A stretch of DNA of 64,000 bases from Gordonia humi (GTDB lineage Bacteria; Actinomycetota; Actinomycetes; Mycobacteriales; Mycobacteriaceae), in contig NZ_JACIFP010000001.1 of the NCBI RefSeq assembly GCF_014197435.1, positions 4,588,001-4,652,000 of the forward strand, written 5' to 3'. Numbering within the stretch: the stretch's first letter is position 1; each line of letters starts with the position of its first letter. The notes under the pieces are model-generated. The model made no database searches. It saw only the letters and a list, made by a program, of their open reading frames with translations, and was not told where the DNA came from. Position numbers and translations under genes: made by a program. This document shows, piece by piece, positions 14,192 to 37,963 of this stretch.

Positions 14192-16177
14192 CTACCAGCG
14201 GTGTGCTCGTCCCTGCTCGATGTACCAGTCGATGAGCGCATAATCGTCAACCGAACGCGGGTCGACGTTGACATCGCTGCGGCCGGCGAGGATCGCGGTG
14301 ACCGGCACCTCGAGCTTCTTGCCGGTACGGGTGTGCGGGATTCCCGGCGCCCGGATCACTTCGTCGGGGACGTGCCGCGCGGAGAGCCTGGTCTTGACCT
14401 GCGCGACGATCCGACCGACGAGGTCGTCGGTGAGTTCGGCGCCGGGGACCAACGTGACGAACAGCGGCATCCAGTACTTGCCGTCGTCTCCGTCGACACC
14501 GAGGACGAAGGCTTCGGCGACGTCGTCGACGGCCTCCACCACCTCGTAGATGTCGGCCGATCCCATGCGGATCCCGTTGCGGTTGAGCGTCGCGTCGCTG
14601 CGGCCGTGGATGGTCATGGATCCGCGATCGGTGAGCGTGACCCAGTCGCCGTGCCGCCAGACGACGGGGGCGTCGTTCCGGTCCCAGTCGTGGGCGAAGT
14701 ACGCGCTGCGATACTTCTGCCCGTCCGGGTCGGCCCAGAAACGGAGCGGCATGGACGGCATCGGCTCGGTGATCACCATCTCGCCGACCTCGCCGATCAG
14801 CGGCCGCCCCTGCGGCGACCACGATTCGAGGGCGGCGCCCAGGTGACGGACCGTCAGCTCACCCGCGACGACGGGGAGTCCCTGCGATCCGCCGGCGAAC
14901 GCCGAGCAGATGTCCGTTCCCCCGCTGACCGAGTTCACCGGCAGGCCCCGCTTGACGTTGTCGTCGATCCAGGTGAACAGGTCGGCGGCGAGGGTCGAGC
15001 CGGTGCTGCCGACCGTGTCCAGCGCCGACAGATCGTGATCGCGGCCGGGCACGAGCCCGGCCTTCCGTGAGGCCTGCAGCTGACCGGGGCTGGTGCCGAA
15101 GCAGGTCACGTGCTCGTCGGCGACGATCTGCCACAGACGGTCGGCGTCCGGGTACAGCGGCGAGCCGGAGTAGCAGACGATCCGCGCGCCGGCGAGCAGT
15201 CCGGCCGCTTGGAAGTTCCACATCATCCAGCTCAATGCCGTGTGCCAGAAGAACACCGAATCGGTGCCGAGACCGGAGTGCAGACCGATCTCTTTGAGGT
15301 GCTCGACCACGATGCCGCCGTGTCCGTGTACGATGCCCTTCGGTCGCCCCGTCGTACCGGAGGAGAACAGGACCCACAGCGGATGGTCGAACGGCACCTT
15401 GACCGGCCACTCCGCCAACCGCCGGTCGCCCCCTTCCCGTTGGTCGAGCCCGTCCCGTTGGTCGAGCCCCTCCCGTTGGTCAAGCGGAGTCGAGACCTCC
15501 TCCCACGTCAGGGCCCCGTCGACCGGCTCCCCCACGACGATGTGCGTGTCCACGCCGAGCAGTCGCGCGAGTTCGGTCGAGTCCGCCCGCTTGTCGACGT
15601 CCTTGCCGTTGAAGCGGTAGCCCGACGAGGAGAACAGCACCGTCGGTTCGAGTTGCGCCAAGCGCCCGGCGGCTCCCTCCGGTGCGTAATCCTGTCCGCA
15701 GCCGGACCAGATCGCACCGAGCGAGGCCGTCGCCAGGAACGCGATCACCGTCTCGGGGATGTCGGGCATGTATGCGGCGACCACGTCGCCCCGCCCGACT
15801 CCTCGATCGGCCAGCGTCCGCGCCACGGCCTCCACCGACACGGGCAGATCGGTCCACTCGACTTCCGTACGTCGCCCGTCCTCGGTGACGCCGACGATCG
15901 CGACACCGTCCCGGTCGGCGTGTGCCAGGACCGCGTCGACGTAGTTGAGTCGCACCGTGGGGAACCAGGACGCGCCCGGCATCGACGCGTCGGCGAGCAC
16001 CGGTCCGTCGCCGAGCGGTTCCGCCGCGATCGCATCGAGGTCGAAGAAGTCCCACACCGCGCGCCAGAAGCCGGACAGGTCGGTGACCGAGTACTCCCAC
16101 AGGTCGGCGTAATCGGTGAGGTCGCGGCCGGCACGGGCACCGACATCCTTGGCGAAGACGTCGATGCGACGCGTCAT
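14192..16177 (-). CDS. aacS: Acetoacetate-CoA ligase
   Basis: 661 residues of the ANL superfamily. It activates acetoacetate to acetoacetyl-CoA using ATP. It has an N-terminal ACAS-like region, the AMP-binding P-loop FSSGTTGRPKG at about 268-278, the HGRSDATLNRNGIRMG hinge near 527, and the C-terminal catalytic Lys in the TGKKLEVPV segment near 625. Residues about 228-250 (three LDQR-type units) come from a short tandem DNA repeat and are not part of the family fold. Its first 101 codons recur at 37661-37963, so this copy may be a hybrid formed when the neighbouring island inserted. It belongs functionally with the scoAB/thiolase/leucine genes 22 kb away. Confidence 0.94.
   Translation of the reverse strand: MTRRIDVFAKDVGARAGRDLTDYADLWEYSVTDLSGFWRAVWDFFDLDAIAAEPLGDGPVLADASMPGASWFPTVRLNYVDAVLAHADRDGVAIVGVTEDGRRTEVEWTDLPVSVEAVARTLADRGVGRGDVVAAYMPDIPETVIAFLATASLGAIWSGCGQDYAPEGAAGRLAQLEPTVLFSSSGYRFNGKDVDKRADSTELARLLGVDTHIVVGEPVDGALTWEEVSTPLDQREGLDQRDGLDQREGGDRRLAEWPVKVPFDHPLWVLFSSGTTGRPKGIVHGHGGIVVEHLKEIGLHSGLGTDSVFFWHTALSWMMWNFQAAGLLAGARIVCYSGSPLYPDADRLWQIVADEHVTCFGTSPGQLQASRKAGLVPGRDHDLSALDTVGSTGSTLAADLFTWIDDNVKRGLPVNSVSGGTDICSAFAGGSQGLPVVAGELTVRHLGAALESWSPQGRPLIGEVGEMVITEPMPSMPLRFWADPDGQKYRSAYFAHDWDRNDAPVVWRHGDWVTLTDRGSMTIHGRSDATLNRNGIRMGSADIYEVVEAVDDVAEAFVLGVDGDDGKYWMPLFVTLVPGAELTDDLVGRIVAQVKTRLSARHVPDEVIRAPGIPHTRTGKKLEVPVTAILAGRSDVNVDPRSVDDYALIDWYIEQGRAHRW
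15436..15489. repeat. 18-base tandem repeat in aacS, STSLDQQ-repeat family
   Basis: Three 18-base units beginning CCCGTTGGTCGAGCCC run head to tail; the third ends in GCGGAGTCGAGAC, matching the dispersed repeat found at four other places in the window. Translated on the minus strand the units give in-frame STPL-LDQR-type residues in AacS. Confidence 0.85.
15875..16177. repeat. 303-bp direct repeat, left copy (aacS 5' end)
   Basis: Collinear, without gaps, with 37661-37963. By eye I count about 17 mismatches in 303 bases. A central stretch of 152 bases (15887-16038) is identical, and most mismatches are in the 70 bases nearest the start codon. The two copies bracket the 16.2-37.7 kb island. 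Confidence 0.95.
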
Positions 16178-16286
16178 TCGGGGCTTCCTCTCAGGGCCGG
16201 GACAGTGCTTCCCTCACTGTAATCCGCGTCGCCGCGCCCGTCTGCCAAGATCGTGTGCGGCGCGAGACCTCGAATCTGGAGCGATG

Positions 16287-16529
16287 CACGGGCAGCTTTC
16301 GGGTATGACGCGTGCTCGCCTCCGCATGGACGACGTGGCGCCCCGTATTCGCGGGAACGTAGTCGACCATGCCCGGCATCCACGAGCCGAACAGGTCGCG
16401 ACTGGAGGCGATGAAGCGGGGCTGCTCGCCGGCCCGGAAGTCGATTCCGGGAGGAGCGAGGCCTATCTGCACTTCGACGATCTGACCCGACCGGAGCTTC
16501 TCGACGCGATCACAGTACGGCCGCAGCTC
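16287..16529 (-). pseudogene. Decayed C-terminal fragment of a CocE/NonD-type hydrolase
   Basis: Read on the minus strand from 16529, the frame gives a segment resembling the C-terminal jelly-roll end of CocE/NonD (X-Pro dipeptidyl) hydrolases: APPGIDFRAGEQPRF, then SRDLFGSWMPGM, then YVPANTGRHVVHA. After HVVHA the expected GGEHASY continues only in another frame, and KLPV returns in the first frame, so at least two indels are present. There is a stop just upstream of the fragment and no start. It is a relic at the left edge of the island, between aacS and the HIT-family gene. Recognition is from memory of the family's conserved tail. Confidence 0.6.
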
Positions 16530-16639
16530 GCACCGTCACCGGACCCGCGATGCAACGCATCGAGCGATGCGTCACCCGCACCTGGTCACGACGACGTCGC
16601 CGCATACGCGGCGAGTTCACCGAACGCCGGCCGCATCGG

Positions 16640-17098
16640 TCACCCCACTTCCTCTGCGGCGGGGCCCGTCGCATACCGCTGGTAGGCGGCGGCGACAGCG
16701 GGGACGAGAGCTGCTGCGGCTCGGCTGTCCACCCGCTCGCCCGCCAGCTGAAGGATCTTGCCTCTACGGCGGTCCGCGGGTACGTCGTCTCCTCGTGCGG
16801 TGATCAGCGCGTGGTAGTGCTTGTGGTTCTCCCCGAACGCCATCATGTAGGTGGCGGGCGCTCCCGTCACCTCCGCGACGGCGGCCGTGAGGTCCCTCGC
16901 GCGGCGCCCGAGTGAGGCCAGCTCCGCGTCGTTCAGACCCGTGATGAGTTCGGCATGGCGGCGGGCTCGCAGCACGATCCATCCCGGAACGTCCATTCCG
17001 GGGACGATCTCGCCGGCCCAGAGGTCGTCCCGGAATAGGACCATGTCCTCAGCGCATTCCTCCTGGACACACATGAGACAGGTGGTCTCAGCACTCAT
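16640..17098 (-). CDS. HIT-family-like protein
   Basis: 152 residues. H92-K-H94-Y-H96 in NHKHYHALI is the histidine-triad signature; the N-terminal C7-x2-C10 pair and C15 could bind zinc. HIT proteins hydrolyse or transfer nucleoside monophosphates. The ATG at 17098 has a GGAAAGGAAG site upstream; longer starts run into the promoter-proximal spacer. It is last in the minus-strand operon dioxygenase-flavin reductase-monooxygenase-HIT, 123 bases after the monooxygenase. Its role there is unknown. Confidence 0.72.
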   Translation of the reverse strand: MSAETTCLMCVQEECAEDMVLFRDDLWAGEIVPGMDVPGWIVLRARRHAELITGLNDAELASLGRRARDLTAAVAEVTGAPATYMMAFGENHKHYHALITARGDDVPADRRRGKILQLAGERVDSRAAAALVPAVAAAYQRYATGPAAEEVG

Positions 17099-17221: not shown

Positions 17222-18427
17222 TCAGATGAGCGGAGTGATCTGATCGTCACGGCCGAGCAGCGTCTTGCCGTAGACCTCGTAGCTCACGGCGGGCATCGTC
17301 ACCGCATGGCGAGCAGCGACGTTCGAATCCCGCCAGATGCGCTGCATCGGGTTGACCTCGGCGAAGCTGCCTGCACCGTGCGCCGAGACCAAGGTGTCGA
17401 TCGCCTTGGTCACGTGCTCGATCACCCATGCGGTGTCGGCGCGTACTCGAGCGCGGACTAGCTCGTCGGGGTATACACCGGCCGCTGCAGCCGAATCGAT
17501 GTCGTCAGCCGCCCGGTAGGCGTGCAGGTGCGCCGACTCGATGTACATCGCGGCCTCGGCGATCTGGAGTTGGAAGGCCACCGAGTCCGACTGCGCCGTG
17601 TAGAAGGTGTAGGCGATCGCCTTCTTGTCAGCCTTCTCCGTGGCGATCTCCAGAGCCTTCCGCCCCATGCCGAGCTGAGGACCGGCCAGGACCAGCGAGA
17701 GCAGCGGTACGAACGCCGAGCGGTAGAGCGCCTCCTCCGAATGTTCGGTCGCGTACTCGCCCTTGATGGCGCCGGGCACGAGCATGATCCGATGTTCGGG
17801 AACGAATACGTCCTCGGCGATCAGGCAGTTCGAACCCGATGACCGCATTCCGGCGACGAACCACGTCTCCTCGAAGCCGAGTTCCAATCGCGGGAGCAGT
17901 GCCAGAGCCTGATCGATCACCTCGCCGTCGCTGTCGGTGATCGGGATCCCGAGGACCGCCCAGTCCGCGTGCCACGAGCCCGAGTTGTAGTACCACCGTC
18001 CGGAGACGCGGAAACCGCCGTCGACCTTCACCGCCTCCGACGTAGGAGCCAGGACGCCGGAGACCTTCGCATCCGGATTCTCCGCCCAGACGTCGTCCTG
18101 CGCCTTCTCCGAGAACAGACCGGTCATCCAGGCGCAGACGTTGCTCAGCGTGACGACCCAGGAAGCTCCGCCGTCTGCTTCGGCGACGGCGGCGGACACC
18201 TCGAGCATCGTCCGCATCGAGGTCTCGTAGCCGCCGTACCGACGGGGCTGAGCGATTCTGAACGCCCCGGCCTCGGTGAGCGCAGCGATCGACTCCTCCG
18301 GCACGCGACGGTCTGCTTCACCCTGGGCCGAGTTCTTCGCCAGGATGGGCTGGATCTCCCGGATCCGCTCGAGGATGTCCTCGCGAGTGGGCACATCGGC
18401 GGAGATGGATTCAGTGATGGTGGTCAT
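17222..18427 (-). CDS. Flavin-dependent monooxygenase, acyl-CoA-dehydrogenase fold (HsaA/HpaB-like)
   Basis: 401 residues of the class D two-component flavoprotein monooxygenases. These use FMNH2 or FADH2 from a separate reductase to hydroxylate phenols ortho to the hydroxyl group. Features: DGGASWVVTL and SGRWYYNSGSWHADWAV (substrate/flavin pocket) and the C-terminal YEVYGKTLLGRD tail. The cognate reductase is encoded 51 bases upstream. The ATG at 18427 is preceded by GAGGAA at good distance; the ATG 12 bases earlier would destroy that site. HsaA hydroxylates a steroid-derived phenol in M. tuberculosis; here the aromatic-acid importer and dioxygenase suggest a simple aromatic, which is inference. 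Confidence 0.85.
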   Translation of the reverse strand: MTTITESISADVPTREDILERIREIQPILAKNSAQGEADRRVPEESIAALTEAGAFRIAQPRRYGGYETSMRTMLEVSAAVAEADGGASWVVTLSNVCAWMTGLFSEKAQDDVWAENPDAKVSGVLAPTSEAVKVDGGFRVSGRWYYNSGSWHADWAVLGIPITDSDGEVIDQALALLPRLELGFEETWFVAGMRSSGSNCLIAEDVFVPEHRIMLVPGAIKGEYATEHSEEALYRSAFVPLLSLVLAGPQLGMGRKALEIATEKADKKAIAYTFYTAQSDSVAFQLQIAEAAMYIESAHLHAYRAADDIDSAAAAGVYPDELVRARVRADTAWVIEHVTKAIDTLVSAHGAGSFAEVNPMQRIWRDSNVAARHAVTMPAVSYEVYGKTLLGRDDQITPLI

Positions 18428-18478
18428 GGGGTTCCTCATTCGATTCGTTGGATTGTGACGACAGGTGTGCGCGATGTG

Positions 18479-19042
18479 TCAGTCCGAGATGCACGCGGCG
18501 ATCTGGTCGACGATCGACCGGCGCGGACGTTCGTTGAAGCGCGAGTGTGTGCCGAACACGCGATTGGCGTAGACGAGCGGCGCCTTCTCGGCGTTGCATG
18601 CCTTGGTCACCTGGCCGATCAGGAGCAGGTGGTCGCCGCCCTCGACCGCTTCACGCAGATCGCACGCGACCCAGCCCGCCGATCCCTCCACTCGCGGCAG
18701 ACCACTGTCGGTGTGCCACCGGGTAGCGGCGAACCGGTCCTCCCCTCGACTGGCGAATCGCATCGCGAGATCGTCCTGGCCGTGGTGGAGCACGTTCACG
18801 CCGAACCTGCCTGCCGCGATGATCCGACCGAGCAGCGCCGATCGGCGGTCGAAGGCCACCGTGACGAGCGGCGGATCCAGCGATAGCGATGCGAATGAGC
18901 TCGCGGTCGCTCCGTGCGGCCCGTCGGCATCCGCGGTCGTGACAATCGTCACCGGCGCGCAGACGCGCGCCATCAAGTCCCTGAAGCGCTTGGCGTCCAC
19001 GACGGCCCCGGCTTCGCTCGTGAGATCAGAAGTGCTGGTCAC
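18479..19042 (-). CDS. Flavin reductase (HpaC/HsaB-like)
   Basis: 187 residues of the flavin reductase-like FMN-binding fold: FRDLMARVCAPVTIVTT at the N-terminus, the HGATASSFASLSLDPPLV flavin-binding segment and the conserved RFGVNVL strand. It supplies reduced flavin to the monooxygenase encoded immediately downstream (51 bases). The dioxygenase gene is 30 bases upstream. Typical length for the family is 160-190. Confidence 0.92.
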   Translation of the reverse strand: MTSTSDLTSEAGAVVDAKRFRDLMARVCAPVTIVTTADADGPHGATASSFASLSLDPPLVTVAFDRRSALLGRIIAAGRFGVNVLHHGQDDLAMRFASRGEDRFAATRWHTDSGLPRVEGSAGWVACDLREAVEGGDHLLLIGQVTKACNAEKAPLVYANRVFGTHSRFNERPRRSIVDQIAACISD

Positions 19043-19072
19043 GATGGTCGACCTCCTCAGGTCACAGGTGGG

Positions 19073-19645
19073 TCAGTTCGCTCCGACGAGGACACTCATC
19101 GGATCGGGGAGGTCGGTCTGCAACGCCCACGTACGCGGTGTCAGTTCGTCGACCGAGGCACCGGCACGACGGGCGGCGAGCATGGCTTCGGGATCGAACG
19201 CCGGTCCGACGGAGTCTCCTGCGTATTCGGGTCCGTGCATGTACTCGGTGGCCTGATCCGGTTCCGCGAAGTTGTCGATCTGCATCTCGACGAAATGTCC
19301 GTCGGGATCCCGGTAGTACAGGGACGTCGTGACGCCGTGTGCGATGCACACCGCCGGCAGCACGCCCTTGTCTCGCAGGATCTCGTAGCGCTCGAGGAGC
19401 TGATCGAGGTGATCGAAGGTGTAGGCGACGTGGTGCATCGCGGCCGTCGTCGGGAGTTTGCGCTCGAGCGGTATCGGCGGGGTGAGCAGAGCGACGCGGT
19501 GGTGTTCCTCGTCGAAGGTGATGAAGCACAGCGCGTCGTCCTGGTAGACGATGTGACCGTCCAGGACGGAGCAGTACCATTCGGACATCTCCGCCGGCTG
19601 TGCCGTCTGGAATACCACGTGTGCGAATTTCGGCTTAGCGGACAT
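19073..19645 (-). CDS. VOC-family extradiol-type ring-cleavage dioxygenase
   Basis: 190 residues, one vicinal-oxygen-chelate module pair. The metal triad is consistent with H9, H71 or H72 and E120, the 2-His-1-carboxylate set of type I extradiol dioxygenases; the DPDGHFVEMQ motif around E120 is diagnostic. It is shorter than the two-domain BphC enzymes (about 290), so it belongs to the small one-domain type. First gene of the four-gene operon; ATG at 19645 with a GAGGAGAG ribosome site. The most natural role is cleavage of the catechol produced by the neighbouring two-component monooxygenase, but other VOC chemistry is possible. Confidence 0.8.
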   Translation of the reverse strand: MSAKPKFAHVVFQTAQPAEMSEWYCSVLDGHIVYQDDALCFITFDEEHHRVALLTPPIPLERKLPTTAAMHHVAYTFDHLDQLLERYEILRDKGVLPAVCIAHGVTTSLYYRDPDGHFVEMQIDNFAEPDQATEYMHGPEYAGDSVGPAFDPEAMLAARRAGASVDELTPRTWALQTDLPDPMSVLVGAN

Positions 19646-19773
19646 CTGAACTCTCCTCTGCACGGGGGAAGGGGAGGGAACACTCGGTTCCGAGATCTGC
19701 CACCGGACGAACGTTCTCCGCGTGTTGCGGAGCACTCCGTCGAATAGTGACTAGACCGATTCGTCAGGGTCTC

Positions 19774-19909: not shown

Positions 19910-20929
19910 TCAGCGATGTTCACGGAGAGTCTTCGACGGTGATTCCCCGAACTTCTGCTCGTAGTACTGCGCAAATCTGCCGAGGTGGTTGAAGCCCCAG
20001 CGGAATGCGATATCGCTGACCGTCGCATCCGATTCGGAGGCGATAAGAGCGCCTCGCACGCCGTCGAGTCGCATATTGCGCACATACTGCGAAGGCGTCA
20101 TGCCGAATTGATCCATGAAGATCTTCTGCAGTTGACGCACTCCGACACCGGCGACCTCGGCGAGATCGGTCACCGTGTACTGGGACCCGGGGGCCGCCTC
20201 CAACCTGTCGAGAACCCGGCGCACCGCGGCGGGGGCACTGCCCTCATCGCGACTGTTCAGAATCACGTCGCTCATCGAGTTCTCCTGCCCCACGAGCAGA
20301 CCTGCGATCAACGCGCGTTCGAGGTGGCCGACCTGCGCGACCGTCACCGAATCCGGGCCCACTCCCCCCTCGGCGATCGTGTCGAGGAGGACCTGCAGTG
20401 TCGTCGCCCACCGGAGTCCTGCGCCCGAGGCGAGATCGAATCCGAGGTCGAATCTCACTCGATCGACGACTGGCCTGCCGATTATCCGCCCCAACTCCTG
20501 CTCCAGTGCGTTGCGGTCGATCTTAATGCTGACCTGCGTGTTATCCGCGGACCACCGCTCCAAGAATGTGCGTTCGCCGGGGGTGTAGATCGCCGCCCGG
20601 TCGGGGCCGGCGACGACGAACTGACGACCCGAACTGACGTCGAGGGCGCCCGATGTCGGCACGTCGATGTGGTATCCGTCGACGGCGCCCGGATCGATCA
20701 GCACGTCCGCCCCGAACCGGACGATGCCGACCGTCATGCACGACAGCCGTATCGCCAGCATCCGCGCACCAGTGAGCTCACGGAAGCCCCCGACGATCTC
20801 CAGCCGGGCGGGATAGAAGGATTCATTGATCGCACTCCGGTAGACGTCGAAATCATCAGTCGCGCACAATATCCCACGGCGCGACCGCGGAACGTCCTCA
20901 GTCGGCGCGACACGGGGGATCTCAACCAT
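19910..20929 (-). CDS. AraC-family transcriptional regulator
   Basis: 339 residues: an N-terminal AraC-binding-2 type sensor domain (to about 210), then two helix-turn-helix units at the C-terminus (YTVTDLAEVAGVGVRQLQKIF and the DIAFRWGFNHLGRFAQYYEQKFG motif). Regulators of this architecture typically activate aromatic-catabolism genes. GTG/ATG starts exist further upstream, but the ATG at 20929 has GAGG 6 bases before it and gives the usual family length. It sits between the dioxygenase operon and the divergent FAH/amidohydrolase pair, and is the likely island activator. Confidence 0.9.
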   Translation of the reverse strand: MVEIPRVAPTEDVPRSRRGILCATDDFDVYRSAINESFYPARLEIVGGFRELTGARMLAIRLSCMTVGIVRFGADVLIDPGAVDGYHIDVPTSGALDVSSGRQFVVAGPDRAAIYTPGERTFLERWSADNTQVSIKIDRNALEQELGRIIGRPVVDRVRFDLGFDLASGAGLRWATTLQVLLDTIAEGGVGPDSVTVAQVGHLERALIAGLLVGQENSMSDVILNSRDEGSAPAAVRRVLDRLEAAPGSQYTVTDLAEVAGVGVRQLQKIFMDQFGMTPSQYVRNMRLDGVRGALIASESDATVSDIAFRWGFNHLGRFAQYYEQKFGESPSKTLREHR

Positions 20930-21154
20930 CTCGAACCTCGATTCTGCAAACCCGCAGACCACGATACTAGCTTCGGAGTGATCCATCACACACGATGATT
21001 GTTTTCGCGTATCGGATTCCGCCGGTTCGCATATCGGATAGTCGTGCGCATCGATCACGAATACGGTCGGAGCGACCGTGGTCTGAGCGATCACGTCCAC
21101 CATCTGTCCCATGACCGCTTCATTTGGTCACCTTGTGAGGAAAACGAGGACAAA

Positions 21155-22042
21155 ATGCGTATCGCAAATGTCAATGACCGTGCCGCACTCGTCACCGGCG
21201 ATACGGGCTCCGAAGTGACCGTCGACCTGGCAGAGATCTCCGAAGGCCGATTCGGCCCCGTACTCGCCGATCTCTATTCGAATTGGGAGGAGTTCGCCGA
21301 TTGGATCCGCACAGTCGAAACCGCCGACGTCGCATCCAAGGGGGTCGCTCTCGACAGGTCCGCTCTGGGTGCGCCGTCACCTACGCCGCGTCAGGTGTTC
21401 GCCATCGGCTTGAACTACCGCGACCACGCGCTCGAGGCCGGCTTCGACATCCCCACTGCTCTCCCGCCGGTGTTCACCAAGTACGTCTCCAGCTTCTCGG
21501 GCCCGGATTCCCGGGTCACGATCCCGACCGATGGCAATGTCGATTGGGAGGCCGAGCTCGTCGTGGTCATCGGCCGCACCGCCCATCGAATCAGCGAGGC
21601 GAATGCCTGGAGCCATGTCGCGGGCCTCACCGTCGGTCAAGACGTCTCCGAGCGGATCTCCCAGCTCCGGGGCCCCGGCGCGCAGTTCGGGTTGGGCAAG
21701 TCGTTCCCCGGATTCTCCCCCCAGGGGCCGTGGCTGGTGACTCCCGACGAATTCAGCGACCCGGACGATCTGGAGGTCGGGTGCGCGGTGGACGACGTCG
21801 AAATGCAACGCAGCCGGACCGGGAACATGATCTTTCCGGTGTCACGCCTGATCGCCGATCTCTCCGCGACCGTCACCCTGTACCCCGGTGACGTCGTATT
21901 CACCGGTACGCCGGCGGGCGTCGGAGTCGCACGGGACCCGCAGCGCTTCCTGAAGCCTGGAGAACGTCTCACCACCTGGATCGACGGCATCGGCGAACTC
22001 CACCAGCAGTTCGTCGCCGAGGACGGTCGCCGGCATGGGTGA
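21155..22042 (+). CDS. Fumarylacetoacetate-hydrolase-family protein
   Basis: 295 residues. The metal-binding acidic residues are visible as E132 and E134 in DWEAELVVVIG and D163 in GQDVSER; the FTGTPAGVG motif follows near the C-terminus. Family members hydrolyse acylpyruvates, or hydrate or decarboxylate ring-cleavage products. The ATG at 21155 has a GAGGAC site; an upstream in-frame extension covers the promoter region and is not credible. It overlaps the amidohydrolase gene by 8 bases. A C-C hydrolase or hydratase acting after ring cleavage is the best guess. Confidence 0.9.
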   Translation: MRIANVNDRAALVTGDTGSEVTVDLAEISEGRFGPVLADLYSNWEEFADWIRTVETADVASKGVALDRSALGAPSPTPRQVFAIGLNYRDHALEAGFDIPTALPPVFTKYVSSFSGPDSRVTIPTDGNVDWEAELVVVIGRTAHRISEANAWSHVAGLTVGQDVSERISQLRGPGAQFGLGKSFPGFSPQGPWLVTPDEFSDPDDLEVGCAVDDVEMQRSRTGNMIFPVSRLIADLSATVTLYPGDVVFTGTPAGVGVARDPQRFLKPGERLTTWIDGIGELHQQFVAEDGRRHG

Positions 22043-23108: not shown

Positions 23109-23113
23109 ACGAT

Positions 23114-25158: not shown

Positions 25159-25478
25159 AGCTGACTCCGTGGAGTCTCGACGATCAGTCCGTCGAGCTCG
25201 TCGGACATCGTTATCTGGCACGACAGCCTGCTGTTCGGCTGTGCGGGCTCGGCCGTCGACTCGAGCATCTCCTCCTCGATCTCGTTCCGCTCGCCGGTCC
25301 GACCGATCCAGTCGTCGTGAACGTAGACGTGGCACGTCGCGCACATCATCGACCCACCGCATTCAGCCACGATCCCGCTGACGCCGCCGAGCATCGCGGC
25401 CTGCATCACGCTTTCGCCTGATACCGCGTCGACGATGAGGTCGCCGTTGTTCCTGTCCGTGAACGTTATCTTCGGCAT
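25155..25478 (-). CDS. [2Fe-2S] ferredoxin
   Basis: 107 residues of the putidaredoxin/adrenodoxin type. Cluster ligands C40, C46, C49 (C-x5-C-x2-C) and C87. Genes for its reductase (overlapping) and P450 (43 bases upstream) flank it, so it is the dedicated electron carrier. Longer starts overlap the spacer and have no ribosome site. Confidence 0.95.
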   Translation of the reverse strand: MPKITFTDRNNGDLIVDAVSGESVMQAAMLGGVSGIVAECGGSMMCATCHVYVHDDWIGRTGERNEIEEEMLESTAEPAQPNSRLSCQITMSDELDGLIVETPRSQL

Positions 25479-25521
25479 TGTTGTCCTAACTTCGTTCTCT
25501 ATTCGAATGCGTGCCGAGCGA

Positions 25522-28166: not shown

Positions 28167-28288
28167 CAGACTCCTTTTCGCCCACATTGAGGACGTGTGT
28201 GGAAAGTGCGCGTACGCACGAGATGATTACCCCTTCGAAACAACCGACACCTATCCGAAGGTGAGCGAAGGAACATCTCGTCGGAGTG

Positions 28289-29603: not shown

Positions 29604-29620
29604 TCCAATGCCCTTCTCGG

Positions 29621-31957
29621 TCAGTCGACCAGATCGAGTGCGGCTCGAACGATGCTGTCCGCATCGATGCCGTGGTATCGGTAGACGTCGTCGAGCGATC
29701 CGACCTGTCCGAACGAACTCACTCCCAGCGCAGTTCCGGCGACGCGGTTGACCCCGGTCAGGAACGCGAGAGTATGCGGGTGCCCGTCGAGGACGGTGAC
29801 CATCGGCGCCGCGCGATCTGCGGGGAACACCTGGTCGAGCACCCAGGAAGGGCCGCCGCCGACTCCGCGGCGCGCCTGGATCGCCTCGAACAGCAGGCCC
29901 GGGCTCGTCACACACACCACCTCCACGGCGATGCCCTGCGCAGCCAGCCGCTCCGCCGCAGCGATCGTCTCGGGGACGATCGCGCCCATCCCGACGACCG
30001 TCACATCCGGTGTGTCGGCACGCCGGAGCGTGTATGCGCCGGCGACGACCTGTCGGCGGCGCCGCTCACGTGCGGCGGAGTCCTCCGGGACCTGTGCCAG
30101 AGTCTGATCGACCGGACGGGTAGACAGTCGCAGGTACGACGAGGAACCGTCGGGACGGCCGAGTCGCGAGATGCTGTCGAACAGCGTCCAGTTCACATCG
30201 ATGGCGAAGGCCGGCTCGTAACTCACGCAGCCGGGCTGTTCGAGGCCGATCGACGGGGTCTTGATCGACTGGTGCGCACCGCCCTCTGCTGCGAGACTCA
30301 CACCGGACGGCGTACCGACGAGAATCGACTGACCACCCGCATAGATCCCGTACGACCACGGCTCCAACGCGCGCTCGACGAACGGGTCGTACATCACGCC
30401 GATCGGGAAGATCGGCTCGCCCCACCTGCTCCAGGTCGCCCCGAGCTCCCCCATCAGACCGACCAGGTTCGTCTCGGCGATTCCGAGCTCCATATGCTGT
30501 CCCGTCGGCCTCTCCCGCCAGTGCAGAATCGTCTCCGGATCGTCGGCGAACCAGTTCTGCCGCTCGGTGGGCGACCACACGCCGACCTTGTTCAACCAGC
30601 CCGCGAGATTAGTCGTCGACGAGACGTCCGGACTCACCGTCACGATGCGTTTGGCCGCATCCGGCGCCTGCCTGCTCAGATCCAGCAGGGCTCGCCCCAA
30701 CGCAGCCTGCGTGGTCGACGTCCCCGTCGGGGTGCGACCGGTGTCGGTCGGCACCGCCGGCGGTGCCGTGAGTTCCACGGGAGGCCGCTTGAGCCGCTGC
30801 GCCGTCGCAGTGCAGACCCGCCCTTCGGGCGACCGCGCGTCGAACCGACCCCATGGAGCAGCAGGATCCATACCGAGCTCCGCCGCCAGCTGCACATACT
30901 CCTCATCGGTGAGCAGCGACGAGTGGTTCTGCGGGTGTCCCTGCGTAGGCAGGCCGTTGCCCTTGATCGTGTAGGCGATGATCGCAGTCGGACGGGTGTC
31001 GTCGATCTTCGCGTACGCCGCACGCAATGCCGGAAGATCGTGCCCACCCAGGTTGCGGATGGCAGCCAAGAGGGTCTGGTCGTCGAGCGCTGCGATGAGC
31101 TCCGCGATCGCCATTGCACCCTCACCCTGTCCCGGCAGCCTGGACCGGACCTCGTCGGCCTCGCAGCGCAGGAGTCGTTGGTACTCGGGGTTCGGCATGT
31201 CGACGATCCGCGTCCTCAACGCATCACCGCCCGGACGAGCGAACAGCGATTCCAGCAGCTCTCCGAACTGGACCGTGATCACCTGCCACCCGGCCGCAGA
31301 GAACATCGCCTCGATCCGGCCCGCCGCGATGTTCGGCACCACACGGTCGAGCGACTGACGGTTGAGGTCCACGATCCAGACGATCTCACCGAGATCGGCC
31401 ACGGAGGTGTCGAGGACCGCCTCCCACACCGCGCCTTCATCCAGTTCGGCGTCTCCGACGAGTGAGTACTGCCGACCGGCCCCGGTCCCGCAGATCGTCG
31501 TGTCCACGTAACGTCGGGCGAAGGCGCCCCAGATCGGGGCGGTCGCGCCGATACCGACCGAGCCGGTGGAGTAGTCGACGGGGTCGGGGTCCTTCGACCG
31601 GCTGGGGTACGACTGCAGGCCGCCGAACTCGCGGAGGGTGGTCAGGTACTTCTCGTCGAGTTCGCCGATCAGGTAGTTGATGCCGTGCAGAACGGGGGAC
31701 GCGTGGGGCTTCACCGACACACGATCACCCGACTGGAGCTGGCCGAACCACAGCGACGTCATGATCGACACCATCGAGGCACACGACGCCTGATGGCCGC
31801 CGACCTTCAAGCCGGTAGGGTTGGGCCGCACTCTGTTGGCATGATGAATCATGGCGGTCGAGAGCCAGAGGATGCGCTTCTCGATCGTCGACATCACGTC
31901 GACGATCGCGGCCGAATCACTCGATGAGGATTCAGTGGGAATACCGATGCTCGTCAC
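29621..31957 (-). CDS. 2-oxoacid dehydrogenase E1, homodimeric (AceE-like) type
   Basis: 778 residues, transketolase-like. The TPP/metal motif starts at GDAELDEGAVWEA and closes at VDLNRQSLD, as in AceE. N-terminal HHANRVRPNPTGLKVGGHQASCAS and the PQNHSSLLTDEEY segment are also AceE-like. It is shorter than AceE (about 900), so parts are trimmed. GTG at 31957 with AGGAAG upstream is preferred; an extension would run into the promoter. It forms a two-gene unit with the E2 gene and is divergent from an Lrp regulator. Substrate is some 2-oxoacid, possibly one released by ring cleavage in the island. Confidence 0.85.
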   Translation of the reverse strand: MTSIGIPTESSSSDSAAIVDVMSTIEKRILWLSTAMIHHANRVRPNPTGLKVGGHQASCASMVSIMTSLWFGQLQSGDRVSVKPHASPVLHGINYLIGELDEKYLTTLREFGGLQSYPSRSKDPDPVDYSTGSVGIGATAPIWGAFARRYVDTTICGTGAGRQYSLVGDAELDEGAVWEAVLDTSVADLGEIVWIVDLNRQSLDRVVPNIAAGRIEAMFSAAGWQVITVQFGELLESLFARPGGDALRTRIVDMPNPEYQRLLRCEADEVRSRLPGQGEGAMAIAELIAALDDQTLLAAIRNLGGHDLPALRAAYAKIDDTRPTAIIAYTIKGNGLPTQGHPQNHSSLLTDEEYVQLAAELGMDPAAPWGRFDARSPEGRVCTATAQRLKRPPVELTAPPAVPTDTGRTPTGTSTTQAALGRALLDLSRQAPDAAKRIVTVSPDVSSTTNLAGWLNKVGVWSPTERQNWFADDPETILHWRERPTGQHMELGIAETNLVGLMGELGATWSRWGEPIFPIGVMYDPFVERALEPWSYGIYAGGQSILVGTPSGVSLAAEGGAHQSIKTPSIGLEQPGCVSYEPAFAIDVNWTLFDSISRLGRPDGSSSYLRLSTRPVDQTLAQVPEDSAARERRRRQVVAGAYTLRRADTPDVTVVGMGAIVPETIAAAERLAAQGIAVEVVCVTSPGLLFEAIQARRGVGGGPSWVLDQVFPADRAAPMVTVLDGHPHTLAFLTGVNRVAGTALGVSSFGQVGSLDDVYRYHGIDADSIVRAALDLVD

Positions 31958-32084
31958 GTCTTCACTTCCTATCCAGGTGCGCTCGTCTGAGAGGAAATCG
32001 ACGGAGAGTTCATTCACGTACGAGGACGGACGAGGCGGTACCGGCGATCCGATTGATTCCAGACGATCACAGATGATCGAACGA

Positions 32085-32125
32085 CTACTCAAAGGCTATG
32101 GAGTGGATCTGCCGACTGCATAGCC
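32085..32125. promoter_or_regulatory. Inverted repeat between E1 and Lrp genes
   Basis: The 424-base region between the divergent E1 and Lrp genes has no gene. It contains GGCTATG (32094) and CATAGCC (32119), a perfect 7-base repeat with 18-base spacing, preceded by CTACTCAAAGGCTA, which resembles CTATTCAATAGGCTA in the MFS promoter at 28309. GTGCA (32229) and TGCAC (32251) form a second spaced repeat nearer the Lrp start. Candidate Lrp sites. Confidence 0.4.
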
Positions 32126-32381
32126 GTATTGCGCAACTACCCATCCGGGAGGCGAACAGCTCTGCACGATCTGCTCGCCGAATAATCGATGCACGTAGGA
32201 TAGTGACCATCTGCGGGTGTTCCAGGCGTGCAATTCACCGGGAATTCACTGCACCAGCAGGTCTTCTACGGACGTATGAATCGCACTGTGTCCCTTCGGG
32301 CACAGCCGTCCACGCCTCTATGTCGGCGGATTCTGCATTCGTACGGATCCTGTTCAGTACGCACGATCGGAGTGGATCTTC

Positions 32382-32864
32382 ATGCCTACCGCACGCACCA
32401 TCGACGCCATCGACGCCAAAATCCTCGTGGCGTTGACCGAGGATCCCCGTGCCACGGTCCTCGCGCTGGCATCGAAGTCGAACCTCTCCCGAAACACCGT
32501 CCAGACCCGTCTCGCCAAGATGGACGCGAACGGTGTGCTGCGGAACTTCGATCGATCCGTCGATCCTGCCGCAGCCGGGTATCCGCTGACCGCATTCGTC
32601 TTCACCCGGGTCGCCCAACAGAGTCTCGCGCAGATCGCGAGCGCACTCGAAGCCATCCCCGAGGTGATCGAGGTCCACGGGCTCAGCGGACAGACCGACT
32701 TGTTGATCCACGTCGTCGCCCAAGGCGCAGACGATCTGTATCGCACCGCGGGTCGGATTCTCGGTATCGACGGCGTCGAACAGACCAACACCGCGCTCGC
32801 GATGCGGAAGCTCGTCGATTACCGAGTCACTCCGCTGCTCGCTCCTCTCGCGGCGCAGCGCTGA
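32382..32864 (+). CDS. Lrp/AsnC-family regulator
   Basis: 160 residues. N-terminal helix-turn-helix ([20 protein letters not shown] and [18 protein letters not shown]) and C-terminal RAM ligand-binding domain ([21 protein letters not shown]). Lrp proteins sense amino acids or related acids. It lies between the E1-E2 pair (divergent) and the acetolactate-synthase-like, MscR and aminotransferase genes (same direction), so it is likely to control one or both groups. Confidence 0.93.
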
Positions 32865-32953
32865 GTTCACCTTCGGTGCGCAGTCTGCACGCGTCAAACG
32901 TCTCCGAGCCGAGAGCGACGAGCAGACTGATCATCTTCCGGCGACCGGGTTGT

Positions 32954-33074
32954 CGGAGGCGCCGAGTACATGGTGAACTCGACGCCTCCGGCAGCGAACA
33001 TCTGTCGTTCACGCCTTTCCTCCGAGCCCGAGGATGTCCCGGCGGCCCATTCGAAGGATCCACCCCCTCCTTCG
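32954..33074 (+). promoter_or_regulatory. Leader with two hairpins before the TPP-enzyme gene
   Basis: The 245-base gap after Lrp holds a 13-bp hairpin with one mismatch (32954-32967 with 32977-32990) and a 7-bp hairpin (33053-33059 with 33068-33074) ending 36 bases before the start codon. The first could terminate the Lrp transcript; both together could form an attenuator of the acetolactate-synthase-like gene. No clear leader peptide was found. Confidence 0.4.
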
Positions 33075-33109
33075 TTACGCCGCGCCTGTGCCGACCGAAG
33101 GACGTACCT

Positions 33110-35107
33110 GTGAGTACCCCTGCCCCCACCCGACTCCGCCCCCGAAATGCGCTCTCCACCAGTACCTCCGAATCGGTTTCCGCCCCCCTAACGGGCGCCC
33201 GTGCGGTGGTGAGGACGTTGGAGAACCTCGGCATCGACTGCGTCTTCGGGATCCCCGGCGGCGCCATCCTCCCCGTCTATGACTCGCTTGCCGAATCACG
33301 ACGTGTCCGACACGTTCTGACCCGTCATGAACAGGCTGCCGGCCATGCTGCGACCGGATACGCACAGGCGACCGGCCGGGTCGGCGTGTGTATCGCCACC
33401 TCCGGGCCGGGCGCGACCAACCTGGTCACCGCGATCGCCGACGCCCAGGCCGACTCTGTGCCCCTCGTGGCCATCACCGGACAGGTCGCCCGTGGACTGA
33501 TCGGGACGGATGCGTTCCAGGAAGCCGACATCATCGGGATCACCGCGCCGATCACAAAGTACAATGTCATGGTCACCGACGCCGCCGACATACCCCGGGT
33601 CCTCGCTGAGGCCTTCCACATCGCTTCGACCGGGCGTCCCGGCGCAGTCCTGGTCGACATCCCGAAAGACGTGCAGCAGGCCACTGCCGCATACTCCTGG
33701 CCGGTGCGGGTCGACCTCCCTGGTTATCGTCCGAACCTCATGCCGAACGCCAATCGGATCCGAGATGCCGTGGAGGCCATCCGGACCTCGACCTCTCCGG
33801 TGCTCTACGTCGGCGGCGGTGCGGTCAAGGCCGAGGCCGAGGCCGATCTCCTGGAGCTGGCGGAGGCGACCGGCATCCCCGTGGTGACGACGCTGATGGC
33901 GCGCGGCGTGTTCCCCGACAGCCATCCCCTCCACTACGGAATGCCCGGCATGCACGGGGCCGTCGCCGCCGTCGCTGCACTGCAACGCAGTGACCTGTTG
34001 ATCGCACTCGGAACCCGCTTCGATGACCGGGTCACCGGTCACTCGGAGTCGTTCGCCCCGCATGCTCGGGTGATCCACGCCGACATCGATCCCGCCGAGA
34101 TCGGCAAGAACCGACCGGTCGACGTCCCGATCGTCGGAGACTGCCGGGAAGTCGTTCGCGCCATCGTCTCGGCGTTCCGAAGCAACCGCTCGGCGTCGTC
34201 AATGCGCCACGATCTTCGCGAATGGCGCGCCGTACTGGACGGCATCGAGCAGACGTACCCGGTCAGCTACGATCGGCCCGTCGACCAGTCGCTGTCCCCG
34301 CAAGCGGTGATCGAGACTCTCGGAGCGACGGTCGGCCCCGACGCGATCTACGCCTCCGGCGTCGGTCAGCATCAGATGTGGGCCGCACAGTTCATCGGAT
34401 TCGAACGACCGCGCACCTGGCTCAACTCCGGCGGCCTGGGGACGATGGGATACGCGGTGCCGGCGGCCCTCGGCGCCAAACTCGGCGCTCCGGAGCGCGA
34501 GGTCTGGGCGATCGACGGCGACGGCTGCTTCCAGATGACGAATCAGGAGCTGGCGACCGCCGCCATCGAAGGCGTCCCGATCAAAGTCGCACTGATCAAC
34601 AACGGGAACCTAGGAATGGTCAAGCAGCTTCAGGACGTCCACTTCGATGGCCGCCATTCGAGCATCGATCTCGCGACGCACTCGCATCAGATCCCGGACT
34701 TCGTCAAACTCGCCGAGTCGTTGGGTTGTGTCGCGTTCCGCTGCGATCGCGAAGACCAGGTCGACGATGTCATCGCGCGTGCGCGCCGGATCGCCGACCG
34801 GCCGGTCGTCATCGATTTCATCGTCAACGACGATGTCCTCGTCTGGCCGATGATCGCAGCCGGGGCGAGCAACGACGAGATCATGGCCGCCGACGGAATC
34901 CGTCCGCTCTTCGACGACGAGACCGAGTACTCGTCGCACACCGGTAGTCGTGCCCCGGTTCCGGGGCACCCTGCATCACCCCCAACCCGATCCAACCTTG
35001 AGGAGTACCCATGCCCCAGCACGTCCGCGGAGTCATCGCTCGATCATCCGGCGCGCCCGTCGAACTCACCGATATCGTCATCCCTGACCCAGGACCGGGC
35101 GAGGTGA
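33110..35107 (+). CDS. Acetolactate-synthase-like TPP enzyme (catalytic subunit)
   Basis: 665 residues. Closest in motifs to AHAS large subunits: [13 protein letters not shown], catalytic E74 in [22 protein letters not shown], the TPP motif [15 protein letters not shown] near 468 and [10 protein letters not shown]. There is no regulatory subunit gene (ilvN) next to it, unlike the housekeeping enzyme. GTG 33110 has GAAGGA 7 bases upstream. The frame runs 97 bases into the mscR gene; residues from about 612 onward are not AHAS-like and include a palindromic hairpin, so the original stop was probably lost. Could make or use an acetolactate-type intermediate or decarboxylate another 2-oxoacid. 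Confidence 0.8.
34950..34969. terminator. Palindromic hairpin in the 3' overlap region
   Basis: GTGCCCCGG and CCGGGGCAC around TT form a near-perfect palindrome, 41 bases before the mscR start. It lies inside the unusual C-terminal extension of the TPP enzyme, and would normally sit between the two genes. It may reduce read-through into mscR. Confidence 0.45.
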
Positions 35108-36096
35108 TCGTCGCGATCTCGGCGTGCGGTGTGTGCCATACCGATCTGACCTATCGCGACGGTGGGATCAACGACGAGTACCCGTTCCTGCTCGGTCACG
35201 AAGCCGCCGGTGTCGTCGACGCCGTAGGCCCCGGCGTCGACTCGGTCGCCATCGGCGACTTCGTCGTCCTCAACTGGCGAGCGGTCTGCGGAGACTGTCG
35301 TGCCTGCCGCCGCGGACGCCCGGAATACTGTTTCAACACCCACAACGCCACCCAGAAGATGACGCTGACCGACGGAACCGAACTCACCGCAGCACTGGGC
35401 ATCGGCGCCTTCGCCGAGAAGACTCTCGTCCACGCCGGTCAATGCACCAAGGTGAACCCCGCCGCCGATCCCGCCGTCGCCGGTCTCATCGGATGCGGTG
35501 TGATGGCGGGGCTCGGCGCTGCCGTCAACACCGGTGGCGTCGCCCGCGGCGATTCGGTGGCCGTGATTGGGTGCGGCGGTGTCGGCGCTGCGGCGGTCGT
35601 CGGAGCGAGACTGGCCGGCGCCACCACGATCATCGCTGTCGACCGGGACCCGCGACGACAATCCATGGCCACCGAGCTCGGTGCCACGCACACCGTCGAT
35701 GCCTCCGCTGTCGACACCGTCGCATCGATTCGGAGCCTGACCGGCGGGTTCGGGGCGGACGTCGTGATCGATGCCGTGGGCCGACCTGAGACCTGGGAGC
35801 AGGCGTTCTACGCTCGAGACCTCGCGGGAACAGTCGTCCTCGTCGGTGTGCCGACACCTGATGTGCGGGTCGACATGGCCCTGGTCGACTTCTTCTCGCG
35901 CGGCGGCGCACTGAAGTCGTCGTGGTATGGCGACTGCCTACCGGATCGTGACTTCCCCATGCTCATCGACCTCCATCTGCAGGGCCGGATCCCGCTGGAG
36001 CACTTCGTCTCCGAACGCATCGGCCTCGACGGGATAGAGGATGCATTCGACGCCATGCATGAGGGCCGAGGACTCAGGTCTGTCGTTACTCTGTAA
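35011..36096 (+). CDS. mscR: S-(hydroxymethyl)mycothiol dehydrogenase
   Basis: 361 residues, class III zinc alcohol dehydrogenase. The whole N-terminal half matches the mycothiol-dependent formaldehyde dehydrogenase pattern: [20 protein letters not shown] (catalytic zinc Cys), GHEAAG, structural-zinc cysteines in [16 protein letters not shown], the [11 protein letters not shown] segment and the IGCGGVG NAD loop. It oxidises the mycothiol-formaldehyde adduct (and reduces S-nitrosomycothiol). GAGGAG upstream of ATG 35011 confirms the start despite the overlap with the upstream frame. In this island it points to formaldehyde release, most simply by P450 demethylation. Confidence 0.93.
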
Positions 36097-36127
36097 CCGC
36101 CGCACGACTCAGTCGAGGGAGGCCCCC

Positions 36128-37213
36128 GTGCCGAACGCACGACCGATCCTGAGAGCTACGCTGGACGCGGTCCCCGCCTATGTGCCGGGCAGCACAGCAC
36201 CGGCGGGCTGGAAACTCTCGTCGAACGAGCTCGCCCACCCACCGCTGGACGGAGTGCTCGACGCCGTCTCCACGGCCGCGACGCAGATGAACCGGTACCC
36301 GGATCTGGCTGCAGTCGAGGTGCGCAGCAGTCTCGCCGATCGGCTCGACGTTCCCGTCAGACACATCGCGGTCGGTGCCGGGTCCAGCGAACTGCTGCAG
36401 CAGGTGATGCGGATCGCCGTCGACCCGGGAGATGAGGTCGTCTACGCCTGGCGGTCGTTCGAGTCGTACCCGATCGTCACGGGGCTCGCCGGGGCACGCG
36501 CTGTAGAGGTGCCGTTGAACGAGGACGAGTCGCACGATCTCCCGGCGATGGCGGACGCAGTGTCCGACCGTACACGGGCGGTGGTCGTGTGCACGCCCAA
36601 CAATCCGACCGGCCGTGCACTGCGGAGTTCCGAGCTCAGCGACTTCCTGGCTCGCATCCCGTCGACCGTGCTCATCGTCCTCGACGAGGCCTACACTGAG
36701 TTCGCGACCGGACCCGATCGTGTCGACGGCGCACGCATATACCGGGACCACCCGAATCTGGTTGTGCTGCGAACCTTCTCCAAGGCCTACGGTCTCGCCG
36801 GCCTGCGTATCGGCTACGCGATCGCCCACGAATCCGTCGCGGAGGCTCTTCGCAAGGCAGCAGTCCCGTTCGGCGTCTCGTCCGTCGCACAGGCTGCAGC
36901 CGTCGCATCCCTCGAAAGACACGATCGACTGATCCGACGAGTGGCCGCGGTCGTCGCCGAGCGCACTCGGGTCCGCGACACGCTGCGCTCACAGGGCTGG
37001 ACCGTCCCTGACAGCGCGGCGAACTTCGTCTGGCTCCGGCTGACGGACCGCACGTCAGACTTCACGGAACACTGCCGGCGAGTCGGAATCACCGTACGGC
37101 CGTACGAACCGGACGGAGTCCGGATCACGATCGGCGAGCCCGCCGCCAACGACGCTCTTCTACGGGCGGCAGGCACATACTCTTACCGCAATCGCGGTGG
37201 GCGCCGACAATGA
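36128..37213 (+). CDS. HisC-like PLP aminotransferase
   Basis: 361 residues, fold-type I, histidinol-phosphate/aromatic aminotransferase group. Motifs: SSNELAHPPL, GAGSSELLQQ, NNPTGRALR with N158-N159-P160, DEAYTEF and the PLP lysine K219 in TFSKAYGLAGLRIGY. Substrate could be histidinol phosphate, phenylpyruvate or a related 2-oxoacid; the catabolic context argues against a histidine-biosynthesis role. GTG 36128 has GGGAGG 5 bases upstream. A short frame starts in an ATGA overlap with its stop. Confidence 0.9.
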   Translation: MPNARPILRATLDAVPAYVPGSTAPAGWKLSSNELAHPPLDGVLDAVSTAATQMNRYPDLAAVEVRSSLADRLDVPVRHIAVGAGSSELLQQVMRIAVDPGDEVVYAWRSFESYPIVTGLAGARAVEVPLNEDESHDLPAMADAVSDRTRAVVVCTPNNPTGRALRSSELSDFLARIPSTVLIVLDEAYTEFATGPDRVDGARIYRDHPNLVVLRTFSKAYGLAGLRIGYAIAHESVAEALRKAAVPFGVSSVAQAAAVASLERHDRLIRRVAAVVAERTRVRDTLRSQGWTVPDSAANFVWLRLTDRTSDFTEHCRRVGITVRPYEPDGVRITIGEPAANDALLRAAGTYSYRNRGGRRQ

Positions 37214-37660
37214 CGCCCACCTGGATGCTGCTCGACGAACATACGCAACCACCCGGCGGATCATCCTCCCCCTCAACCATTCGCCCCTCCGCGCTCATGG
37301 GTCGGCTGGAGTACGGGTTAAAGGCACCGAAGGTCGGATCCCTTTCGACTACGCTGCACCCGGTGACAGCGCCTTCGGACATGTACTGGTCACCGGCGAC
37401 AATGGCATCCCGGATTGTCCGATCAGAGGCTTCCACGATCAGCACCGCCGCTGAGGTTCAGTACCCGCCAACGGTCCCGACGTCCTGAGCACACCGGCCT
37501 CCTACCGCTCGACCAGCCACCGAGCATGCGGTTCCAGATCTGCCGACCGGCTGGCCGCGTCTGCGTGTTCGTATGTGAAACGAAAGATCGTAATAGGGTG
37601 CCCTCCGTGTCTGCTTGCCGATCTTCGACGACCGCGCCAGTCGATGGTCCTGACTCGCTG
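37214..37660. other. 447-base stretch without a confident gene, right end of the island
   Basis: A 92-residue frame begins at 37210 in an ATGA overlap with the aminotransferase stop and ends at 37488; I do not recognise its product. On the opposite strand a frame ending in the aminotransferase gene gives VEASDRTIRDAIVAGDQYM, also unrecognised. One of them may be a gene remnant. The stretch ends abruptly where similarity to aacS begins at 37661. Confidence 0.5.
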
Positions 37661-37963
37661 CCCGTCCTCGACGACGCCGACGATCGCGACACCGTCCCGG
37701 TCGGCGTGTGCCAGGACCGCGTCGACGTAGTTGAGTCGCACCGTGGGGAACCAGGACGCGCCCGGCATCGACGCGTCGGCGAGCACCGGTCCGTCGCCGA
37801 GCGGTTCCGCCGCGATCGCATCGAAGTCGACGAAGTCCCACACCGCGCGCCAGAAGCCGGACAGGTCGGTGACCGAGTACTCCCACAGGTCGGCGTAATC
37901 GGTGAGGTCACGGCCGACCCGCTCGCCCAGATCCTTGGCGAAGACGTCGATCCGTGAAGTCAT
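37661..37963 (-). pseudogene. Truncated 5' copy of aacS
   Basis: An ATG and 101 codons of an acetoacetate-CoA ligase, collinear with the intact gene and about 94% identical by eye; then the frame enters unrelated sequence and stops at 37502. It lacks the AMP-binding and C-terminal domains, so it cannot be an enzyme. It is 177 bases from the IclR gene, which is where the functional aacS would be expected in an uninterrupted genome. It marks the right boundary of the island. Confidence 0.93.

Follow-up and report, generated by a model that had tools for sequence, protein, structure and literature searches.

A 21.5-kb catabolic island lies between two direct repeats of the start of aacS, the gene for acetoacetate--CoA ligase, in a 64,000-nucleotide (nt) stretch of the Gordonia humi genome (contig NZ_JACIFP010000001.1, positions 4,588,001 to 4,652,000; hereafter the window). 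We put at roughly 0.57 the probability that this island, a cluster of aromatic-degradation genes of the ipp kind (named for the 2-isopropylphenol degradation genes of Rhodococcus), was acquired horizontally and integrated by homology-directed recombination at aacS. Direct repeats are present at both ends, the aacS gene at one end is hybrid, the aacS start at the other end is truncated and no integrase is found; homology-directed integration therefore fits.

The repeat is 303 nt long (15,875–16,177 and 37,661–37,963, minus strand), and its copies are collinear without gaps and differ at exactly 17 positions, in agreement with the approximate count made by eye in an earlier note on this DNA; the longest identical runs are 152 nt, as in that note, and 78 nt. 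Past either end no similarity continues in the same register (200 bases checked each way). No other family of direct repeats reaching 30 nt was found in 15,300–38,900 (seed 14), and a search of all 5.09 Mb of the genome (3 contigs) recovered the second copy (E 1.3e-133) and, among the matches listed, only one other, of 40 bases. The left copy forms codons 1–101 of an intact aacS of 661 codons with a hybrid 5′ end (14,192–16,177, minus strand), which is over the cut-off for NCBIfam PRK03584.1/TIGR01217. The right copy, here called the remnant, is a truncated aacS start that again comprises codons 1–101: gap-free aacS similarity stops there, and the frame stays open for 52 codons more. These results agree with what the note had said of the two copies. 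A single matched span extending the aacS similarity of the remnant to codon 109 rests on few residues and was not used. Recombination between the repeats would, as computed from the sequence, restore an open 661-codon aacS after the gene for an IclR-family regulator (38,141–38,902, minus strand).

The mismatches between the two copies are concentrated at the very start of the gene. The first 54 bases hold 13 of the 17, codons 45 and 47 hold two and codon 98 holds two, leaving a near-identical core of ~249 nt (nt 55–303 of the repeat) with only 4; aacS and the remnant are identical at 41/54 bases in codons 1–18 and at 235/237 in codons 19–97. When ten relatives are compared among themselves, a mean of 48% of bases differ in codons 1–18 and 29% in codons 19–97, and lineages with 13/54 differences in the first part would be expected to have ~34 in the second, where 2 are observed. 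Of the 15 mismatches in codons 1–97, 13 fall in codons 1–18, compared with an expected share of 27% (P 3e-6), so that different ancestry is probably limited to the first ~18 codons (at most ~44), the rest having been copied from one source. Nine codons differ within codons 1–18, five of them synonymously, which appears to be the pattern of two working genes from different lineages. The three codons that differ within codons 19–101 all change the amino acid, as a decaying remnant would be expected to show: Phe45 is constant in 10/10 relatives and altered only in the remnant, Leu47 is constant in 9/10 (Val in genome G074) and codon 98 is variable.

The start of the remnant is nearer than the left start to the two relatives closest by aacS, G074 (38/54 vs 32/54 bases) and G053 (35/54 vs 33/54), while for the other eight relatives the two starts differ in closeness by no more than 2 bases; over these 54 nt, the comparison hints weakly that the remnant is the native start. 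The claim of the earlier note that the present aacS is a hybrid is borne out by the distinct ancestry of its first ~18 codons, with this weak indication as to which start is native. A ribosome-binding-like sequence, GAGAGGAA, is visible by eye upstream of both copies. None of the ten relatives is as close to either start as the two starts are to each other (41/54). This would be expected if aacS, or its 5′ part with the promoter, had first been duplicated, if conversion between the repeats had then preserved the identity of the core as the starts drifted apart, and if illegitimate recombination had later placed the island in the upstream copy, destroying the 3′ part of that copy. Such a history accounts for the core but needs two or three independent events, and the five synonymous differences among nine codons are explained at least equally well by two lineages of functional genes. 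Among the matches listed for 24 other Gordonia genomes, no partial aacS duplicate came as close as the remnant does, and we regard a prior duplication as unlikely, though a serious candidate.

The island was probably acquired horizontally. Its amidohydrolase gene (22,035–23,108, plus strand; Pfam) has matches at E≤1e-40 in 2/58 other Gordonia genomes (G024, 66%; G069, 44%) and at E≤1e-100 in 7/400 other genomes of a sample of the family, and the gene for its HsaA-like oxygenase, hsaA, is matched at E≤1e-120 in 7/58 other Gordonia genomes. The DNA at the island edges has only matches of 25–46 bases near E 1e-3: the 462 bp upstream of aacS (16,178–16,639, minus strand) in 3/58 other Gordonia genomes, and the junction segment between the last island gene and the remnant (37,214–37,660) in 1/58, with one match of 30 bases. 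The note's view of the island as incoming DNA is in keeping with this rarity. Compared with relatives, the extra DNA amounts to 26 kb in two parts (16,178–42,221), more than the 21.5 kb outlined in the note. DNA encoding the E2 and E1 components of a 2-oxoacid dehydrogenase matches a Rhodococcus koreensis plasmid over 3.3 kb at 79% identity. No plasmid was found that carries the island in full; the best plasmid match spans 14% of it, and plasmid sequences gave no match to the right junction segment. A second plasmid of the same R. koreensis strain carries E2, E1, Lrp and acetolactate synthase genes in the order found at 28,485–35,107 of the window, and in G017 this module adjoins genes for aacS and a fumarylacetoacetate hydrolase (FAH) family protein. 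A search for the island aminotransferase across the order was uninformative, HisC-type homologues being present in 371/397 genomes.

No tyrosine-integrase or serine-resolvase match was found anywhere in the window, in line with the note's statement that the island edges lack an integrase; the closest integrase match lies ~158 kb away from it. The 64,000 nt contain no tRNA genes, and no transfer genes were found among the open reading frames (ORFs) scanned; insertion sequence transposases and relaxases were sought by Pfam scans of selected ORFs only. Attachment (att) cores are typically short, whereas the aacS starts share ~249 nt, and with no integrase, resolvase or transfer gene detected we consider it improbable that the island is an integrative element of the kind that inserts into the 5′ ends of genes. 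Elements of that kind, such as SXT at prfC and IMEVchUSA3 at dusA, are described as bringing a new 5′ coding end with its upstream DNA and leaving the native start at the far junction (PMC8409611), a topology that the two different aacS starts here may match, which of them is native being indicated weakly over 54 nt. The cargo of the island differs from that of the elements so described in being, as far as identified, catabolic only.

The earlier note had explained the arrangement by one crossover between the chromosomal aacS and a circular DNA that held the 5′ part of aacS together with the island. In its plain version, as considered here, that 5′ part is divergent and no conversion takes place. 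The repeat topology, the direct orientation and the lack of an integrase suit this plain form of Campbell-type integration, and direct repeats of the homologous segment are indeed present at both ends. Without conversion, however, a divergent donor would put a donor base and a native base at every position of the repeat and so spread the mismatches along it; the observed crowding into codons 1–18, with far fewer differences in codons 19–97 than expected, leaves little probability for this version. The mismatch pattern therefore calls for conversion of the core or for a donor that had the same core.

The aacS neighbourhood was examined in 42 other Gordonia genomes at aacS or at the gene for an acyl-CoA ligase (FACS) (24, most with 1.5-kb flanks; 29 FACS loci, 11 overlapping), and over up to 20 kb in the ten nearest relatives and G023. 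The order in relatives is FACS, aacS, DUF5336, DUF6350, purH, with FACS adjoining aacS in 37/42; G020 has a citE-like gene in that place, G005, G007 and G014 have only a 53–54% aacS without FACS in the short flank, and G023 has no aacS orthologue. The order in the window is FACS (42,222–43,895, minus strand), a convergent block (38,974–42,134, plus strand) of a carboxymuconolactone-decarboxylase-family gene (CMD), thiolase, scoB/pcaJ and scoA/pcaI, assigned by profile matches, then IclR, the remnant, the island and the intact aacS. A contig of G023 carries purN, purH, DUF6350, DUF5336, IclR (88% to that of the window, at the corresponding place), scoA, scoB and CMD (84–87%); this block (G023:C159, 4,900–7,969) is without aacS and without thiolase, and the sequence before DUF5336 resembles that of the window. 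FACS of G023 ends another contig, and its adjacency to the block there is presumed. At this site G023 shows an apparent replacement of aacS by a CoA-transferase. Short repeats of the GTTGGTCGAG type are found at the end of the FACS contig of G023 and make up much of the FACS–aacS gap of G074 (3,895–4,237).

In G053 the FACS–aacS gap of ~200 bases (15,839–16,045) contains a scar of CMD, matching its codons 41–60 (85%) and 110–126 (82%) in the orientation and order of the window, the only such scar among the 29 other FACS loci. The sco/CMD block thus once lay between FACS and aacS in the line of G053 and was deleted later. This places aacS on the far side of the block from FACS, and in both the window and G023 that side is the IclR end. 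An ancestor with aacS at the IclR end is indirectly supported in this way. The note had placed the remnant where aacS would belong, which departs from the position of aacS after FACS in relatives today but is compatible with the former order in the line of G053; it had also expected island-free relatives with aacS directly beside IclR, for which this scar is the indirect trace found. Neither a genome with two aacS starts and no island nor one with the island genes and no repeat at the junction was seen. That the remnant is itself foreign, having arrived with the IclR–scoAB–thiolase–CMD block as the start of the block's own aacS while the left gene and its upstream DNA were resident, would suit the 37/42 relatives in which FACS adjoins aacS without the block, but is very improbable given that the CMD scar makes the block older than the lineage of the window, that G023 has the block yet no aacS beside IclR, and that the remnant start is somewhat closer than the left start to G074 and G053.

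Related clusters often include an aacS of their own. Gordonia matches to hsaA at E≤1e-120 (10 outside this genome) define 8 clusters in 7 genomes, and five of these (in G003, G006, G021, G044 and G046) contain an aacS paralogue, 46–49% identical, in the order reductase, oxygenase, FAH, ~1 kb, aacS, all on one strand. Among the amidohydrolase-defined loci of the family sample outside this genome, examined over ~20 kb each, 4/7 have aacS next to FAH and those of G024, G631 and G640 have none there; over the hsaA- and amidohydrolase-defined sets the cluster paralogues have 43–50% identity. G008 and G017 were chosen by their aacS and are not counted, and 4/9 loci so chosen had no FAH match. A second aacS in G008 (G008:C5), ~1 kb downstream of FAH, is 64% identical and resembles the housekeeping type more than the other cluster paralogues do. 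No synthetase is among the identified genes of the island, and the hybrid aacS lies downstream of the reductase and oxygenase genes on the same strand. With aacS a recurrent partner, and with the hybrid gene in place beside an island that has no synthetase, aacS is therefore likely part of the island pathway; the donor cluster's own aacS may have provided the homology that guided insertion. Both proposals draw on gene neighbourhood.

Integration directed by homology would have proceeded as follows. A cluster with a two-component flavin monooxygenase, a VOC-type protein, an FAH hydrolase and a 2-oxoacid-dehydrogenase module would have entered the Gordonia chromosome at aacS, which would then have stood at the IclR end of the FACS–CMD–thiolase–scoBA–IclR block. 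The incoming DNA would have ended in the start of the donor aacS, and an early exchange would have linked the body of the resident gene to the donor upstream DNA and to the first ~18 (at most ~44) donor codons. The product would be an intact hybrid aacS downstream of the reductase and oxygenase genes, in the position held in related clusters by a synthetase gene of their own. At its far end the island would have been joined to aacS at codon ~101, probably via a fragment ligated into a circle, and the resident start would have been left as the remnant after IclR. The near-identical core would reflect either conversion towards the resident sequence or a donor whose core already matched.

Several observations weigh against this reading. 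In no genome was an intact aacS found immediately next to IclR, and aacS is within 1.5 kb of IclR at 0/18 other IclR loci (17 genomes); nor was a donor found in which the island is joined to aacS. A simple crossover does not by itself yield the mismatch distribution. Three of the 8 hsaA-defined clusters have no aacS, two in G024 (over ~46 kb and over a whole 20-kb contig) and one in G052 (over 20 kb), and the ~46-kb case (G024:C52) is the Gordonia cluster most like the island, with three hsaA-like genes, amidohydrolase, SnoaL, FAH and E1/Lrp. The partner counts are raw and come without a chance expectation for aacS near such clusters, and the island FAH gene is on the opposite strand, unlike the FAH genes adjacent to aacS in related clusters. 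Similarity between the upstream regions of the two aacS copies was exceeded by 4/400 nulls over 120 bp, but 2/30 comparisons with the regions upstream of distant paralogues gave similarly extreme scores (0 and 3 of 200), and homology of these regions was dropped from the argument. Base composition was downgraded to weak evidence of foreignness: G+C content at third codon positions (GC3) is 0.74–0.84 in island genes (one misread frame left out) and 0.88 in aacS, 0.89 in the remnant, 0.89–0.94 in the sco, thiolase and CMD genes and 0.90 in FACS, but several flanking ORFs do not exceed the island (IclR 0.83, purH 0.80, citE 0.79, g5961 0.77, g347 0.75, g4260 0.73), and two more, perhaps wrong frames, are lower still. 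Overall, the interpretation in the earlier note is supported in part, by the rarity of the island, the hybrid aacS, the lack of an integrase and, indirectly, the ancestral order, and is not supported in its plain crossover with a divergent circle.

The minus-strand genes at the left edge of the island run towards aacS in the order VOC protein, flavin reductase, HsaA-like oxygenase, small protein, aacS. The small protein (16,640–17,098) is without a Pfam match, has a 52% homologue in the G024 cluster and contains by eye an HKHYH-type motif, which we take to be HIT-like. The HsaA-like oxygenase, of the two-component flavin monooxygenase type (17,222–18,439), scores 281.6 bits with NCBIfam HsaA, below the equivalog cut-off of 450, and the flavin reductase (18,479–19,042; Pfam Flavin_Reduct) is HsaB-like, also below the NCBIfam cut-off. 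The glyoxalase/VOC-superfamily protein (19,073–19,645; GC3 0.80), a candidate ring-cleavage dioxygenase, matches Pfam PF00903 (E 2e-13 on the frame 19,073–19,735) and has no NCBIfam match at E≤1e-20; an ORF at 19,062–19,580 (orf172; GC3 0.42) is the wrong frame for this gene. A gene for an AraC-family regulator, AndR-like below cut-off (19,910–21,112, minus strand), is overlapped by the ORF start of the FAH-family gene (20,999–22,042, plus strand; Pfam PF01557), the true start of which is uncertain. Beyond the amidohydrolase gene, profile matches identify on the minus strand a SnoaL-like protein (23,257–23,865), ferredoxin reductase and cytochrome P450 genes (23,935–26,754), an aromatic-acid-type MFS transporter (26,835–28,187; TIGR00895, below cut-off) and the 2-oxoacid dehydrogenase E2 with an AceE-like E1 (28,485–32,092). 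Similar matches on the plus strand identify an Lrp/AsnC regulator (32,382–32,864) and, in 33,170–37,213, an acetolactate-synthase-type thiamine pyrophosphate enzyme, an S-(hydroxymethyl)mycothiol dehydrogenase (35,011–36,096, over the NCBIfam cut-off) and a HisC-type aminotransferase. The mycothiol dehydrogenase within the island suggests that its pathway releases formaldehyde, and together with the P450 this formaldehyde-oxidizing enzyme hints at demethylation.

The ipp cluster of Rhodococcus sp. D-6, for degradation of 2-isopropylphenol, appears to be a close published parallel, with genes listed for an HsaA-like oxygenase, a reductase, a small dioxygenase, an FAH-family protein and an acetoacetyl-CoA-synthetase-like protein (PMC12442392, Table 1). 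The likeness rests on gene families and not on ipp protein sequences: the island shares with the listed genes an HsaA-like oxygenase and flavin reductase (at family level, below equivalog cut-offs) and an FAH-family hydrolase (Pfam), and its VOC-domain protein is a candidate counterpart of the small dioxygenase IppB (PMC12442392). Unlike the ipp cluster as listed, the island has at its edge a resident-type aacS and not a synthetase of its own, no RibBA-type or nitroreductase gene was noted in it, and it contains in addition genes for a P450, an amidohydrolase, a 2-oxoacid dehydrogenase and formaldehyde oxidation.

In Escherichia coli, linear DNA has been reported to integrate by a single crossover after ligation (PMC3240628). 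Integration of ligated DNA in this manner, like homology-facilitated illegitimate recombination (HFIR), has one-sided homology, an arbitrary other junction and no dedicated enzyme, as proposed here, but HFIR inserts are described as averaging ~1 kb with a deletion of similar size, whereas 21.5 kb were gained here with a partial duplication (PMC3240628). HFIR acting on sister chromosomes was considered for the identical core and kept only as a variant, published HFIR inserts being small (PMC3240628). Merodiploids arising by transformation in Streptococcus pneumoniae likewise have direct repeats with a hybrid copy derived from incoming DNA; those described duplicate chromosomal segments of ~100–900 kb, whereas the DNA between the repeats here looks foreign (PMC3784515).

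The arrangement is predicted to be reversible in principle through recombination between the repeats, with excision and also amplification as outcomes. A general scheme can be offered as a speculation that we think doubtful: clusters of a kind that often includes an acetoacetyl-CoA synthetase would use RecA-type homology to integrate at the housekeeping aacS of the host, would dispense with the synthetase they brought and would recruit the resident gene instead, now placed under new upstream DNA, with scoAB–thiolase covering acetoacetate activation for the neighbouring acyl-CoA pathway and the 303-bp repeats keeping the insertion reversible and amplifiable. Integrases, transposons or plasmids are the usual explanation for catabolic islands. 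The junctions described here point instead to ordinary homologous recombination, and the metabolic gene at which it took place is probably one required by the incoming pathway. If this is true, enzymes shared between pathways would serve catabolic clusters as landing sites, the hybrid gene would tie the end step of the pathway to the host, and the repeats would predict spontaneous loss or amplification of the island.

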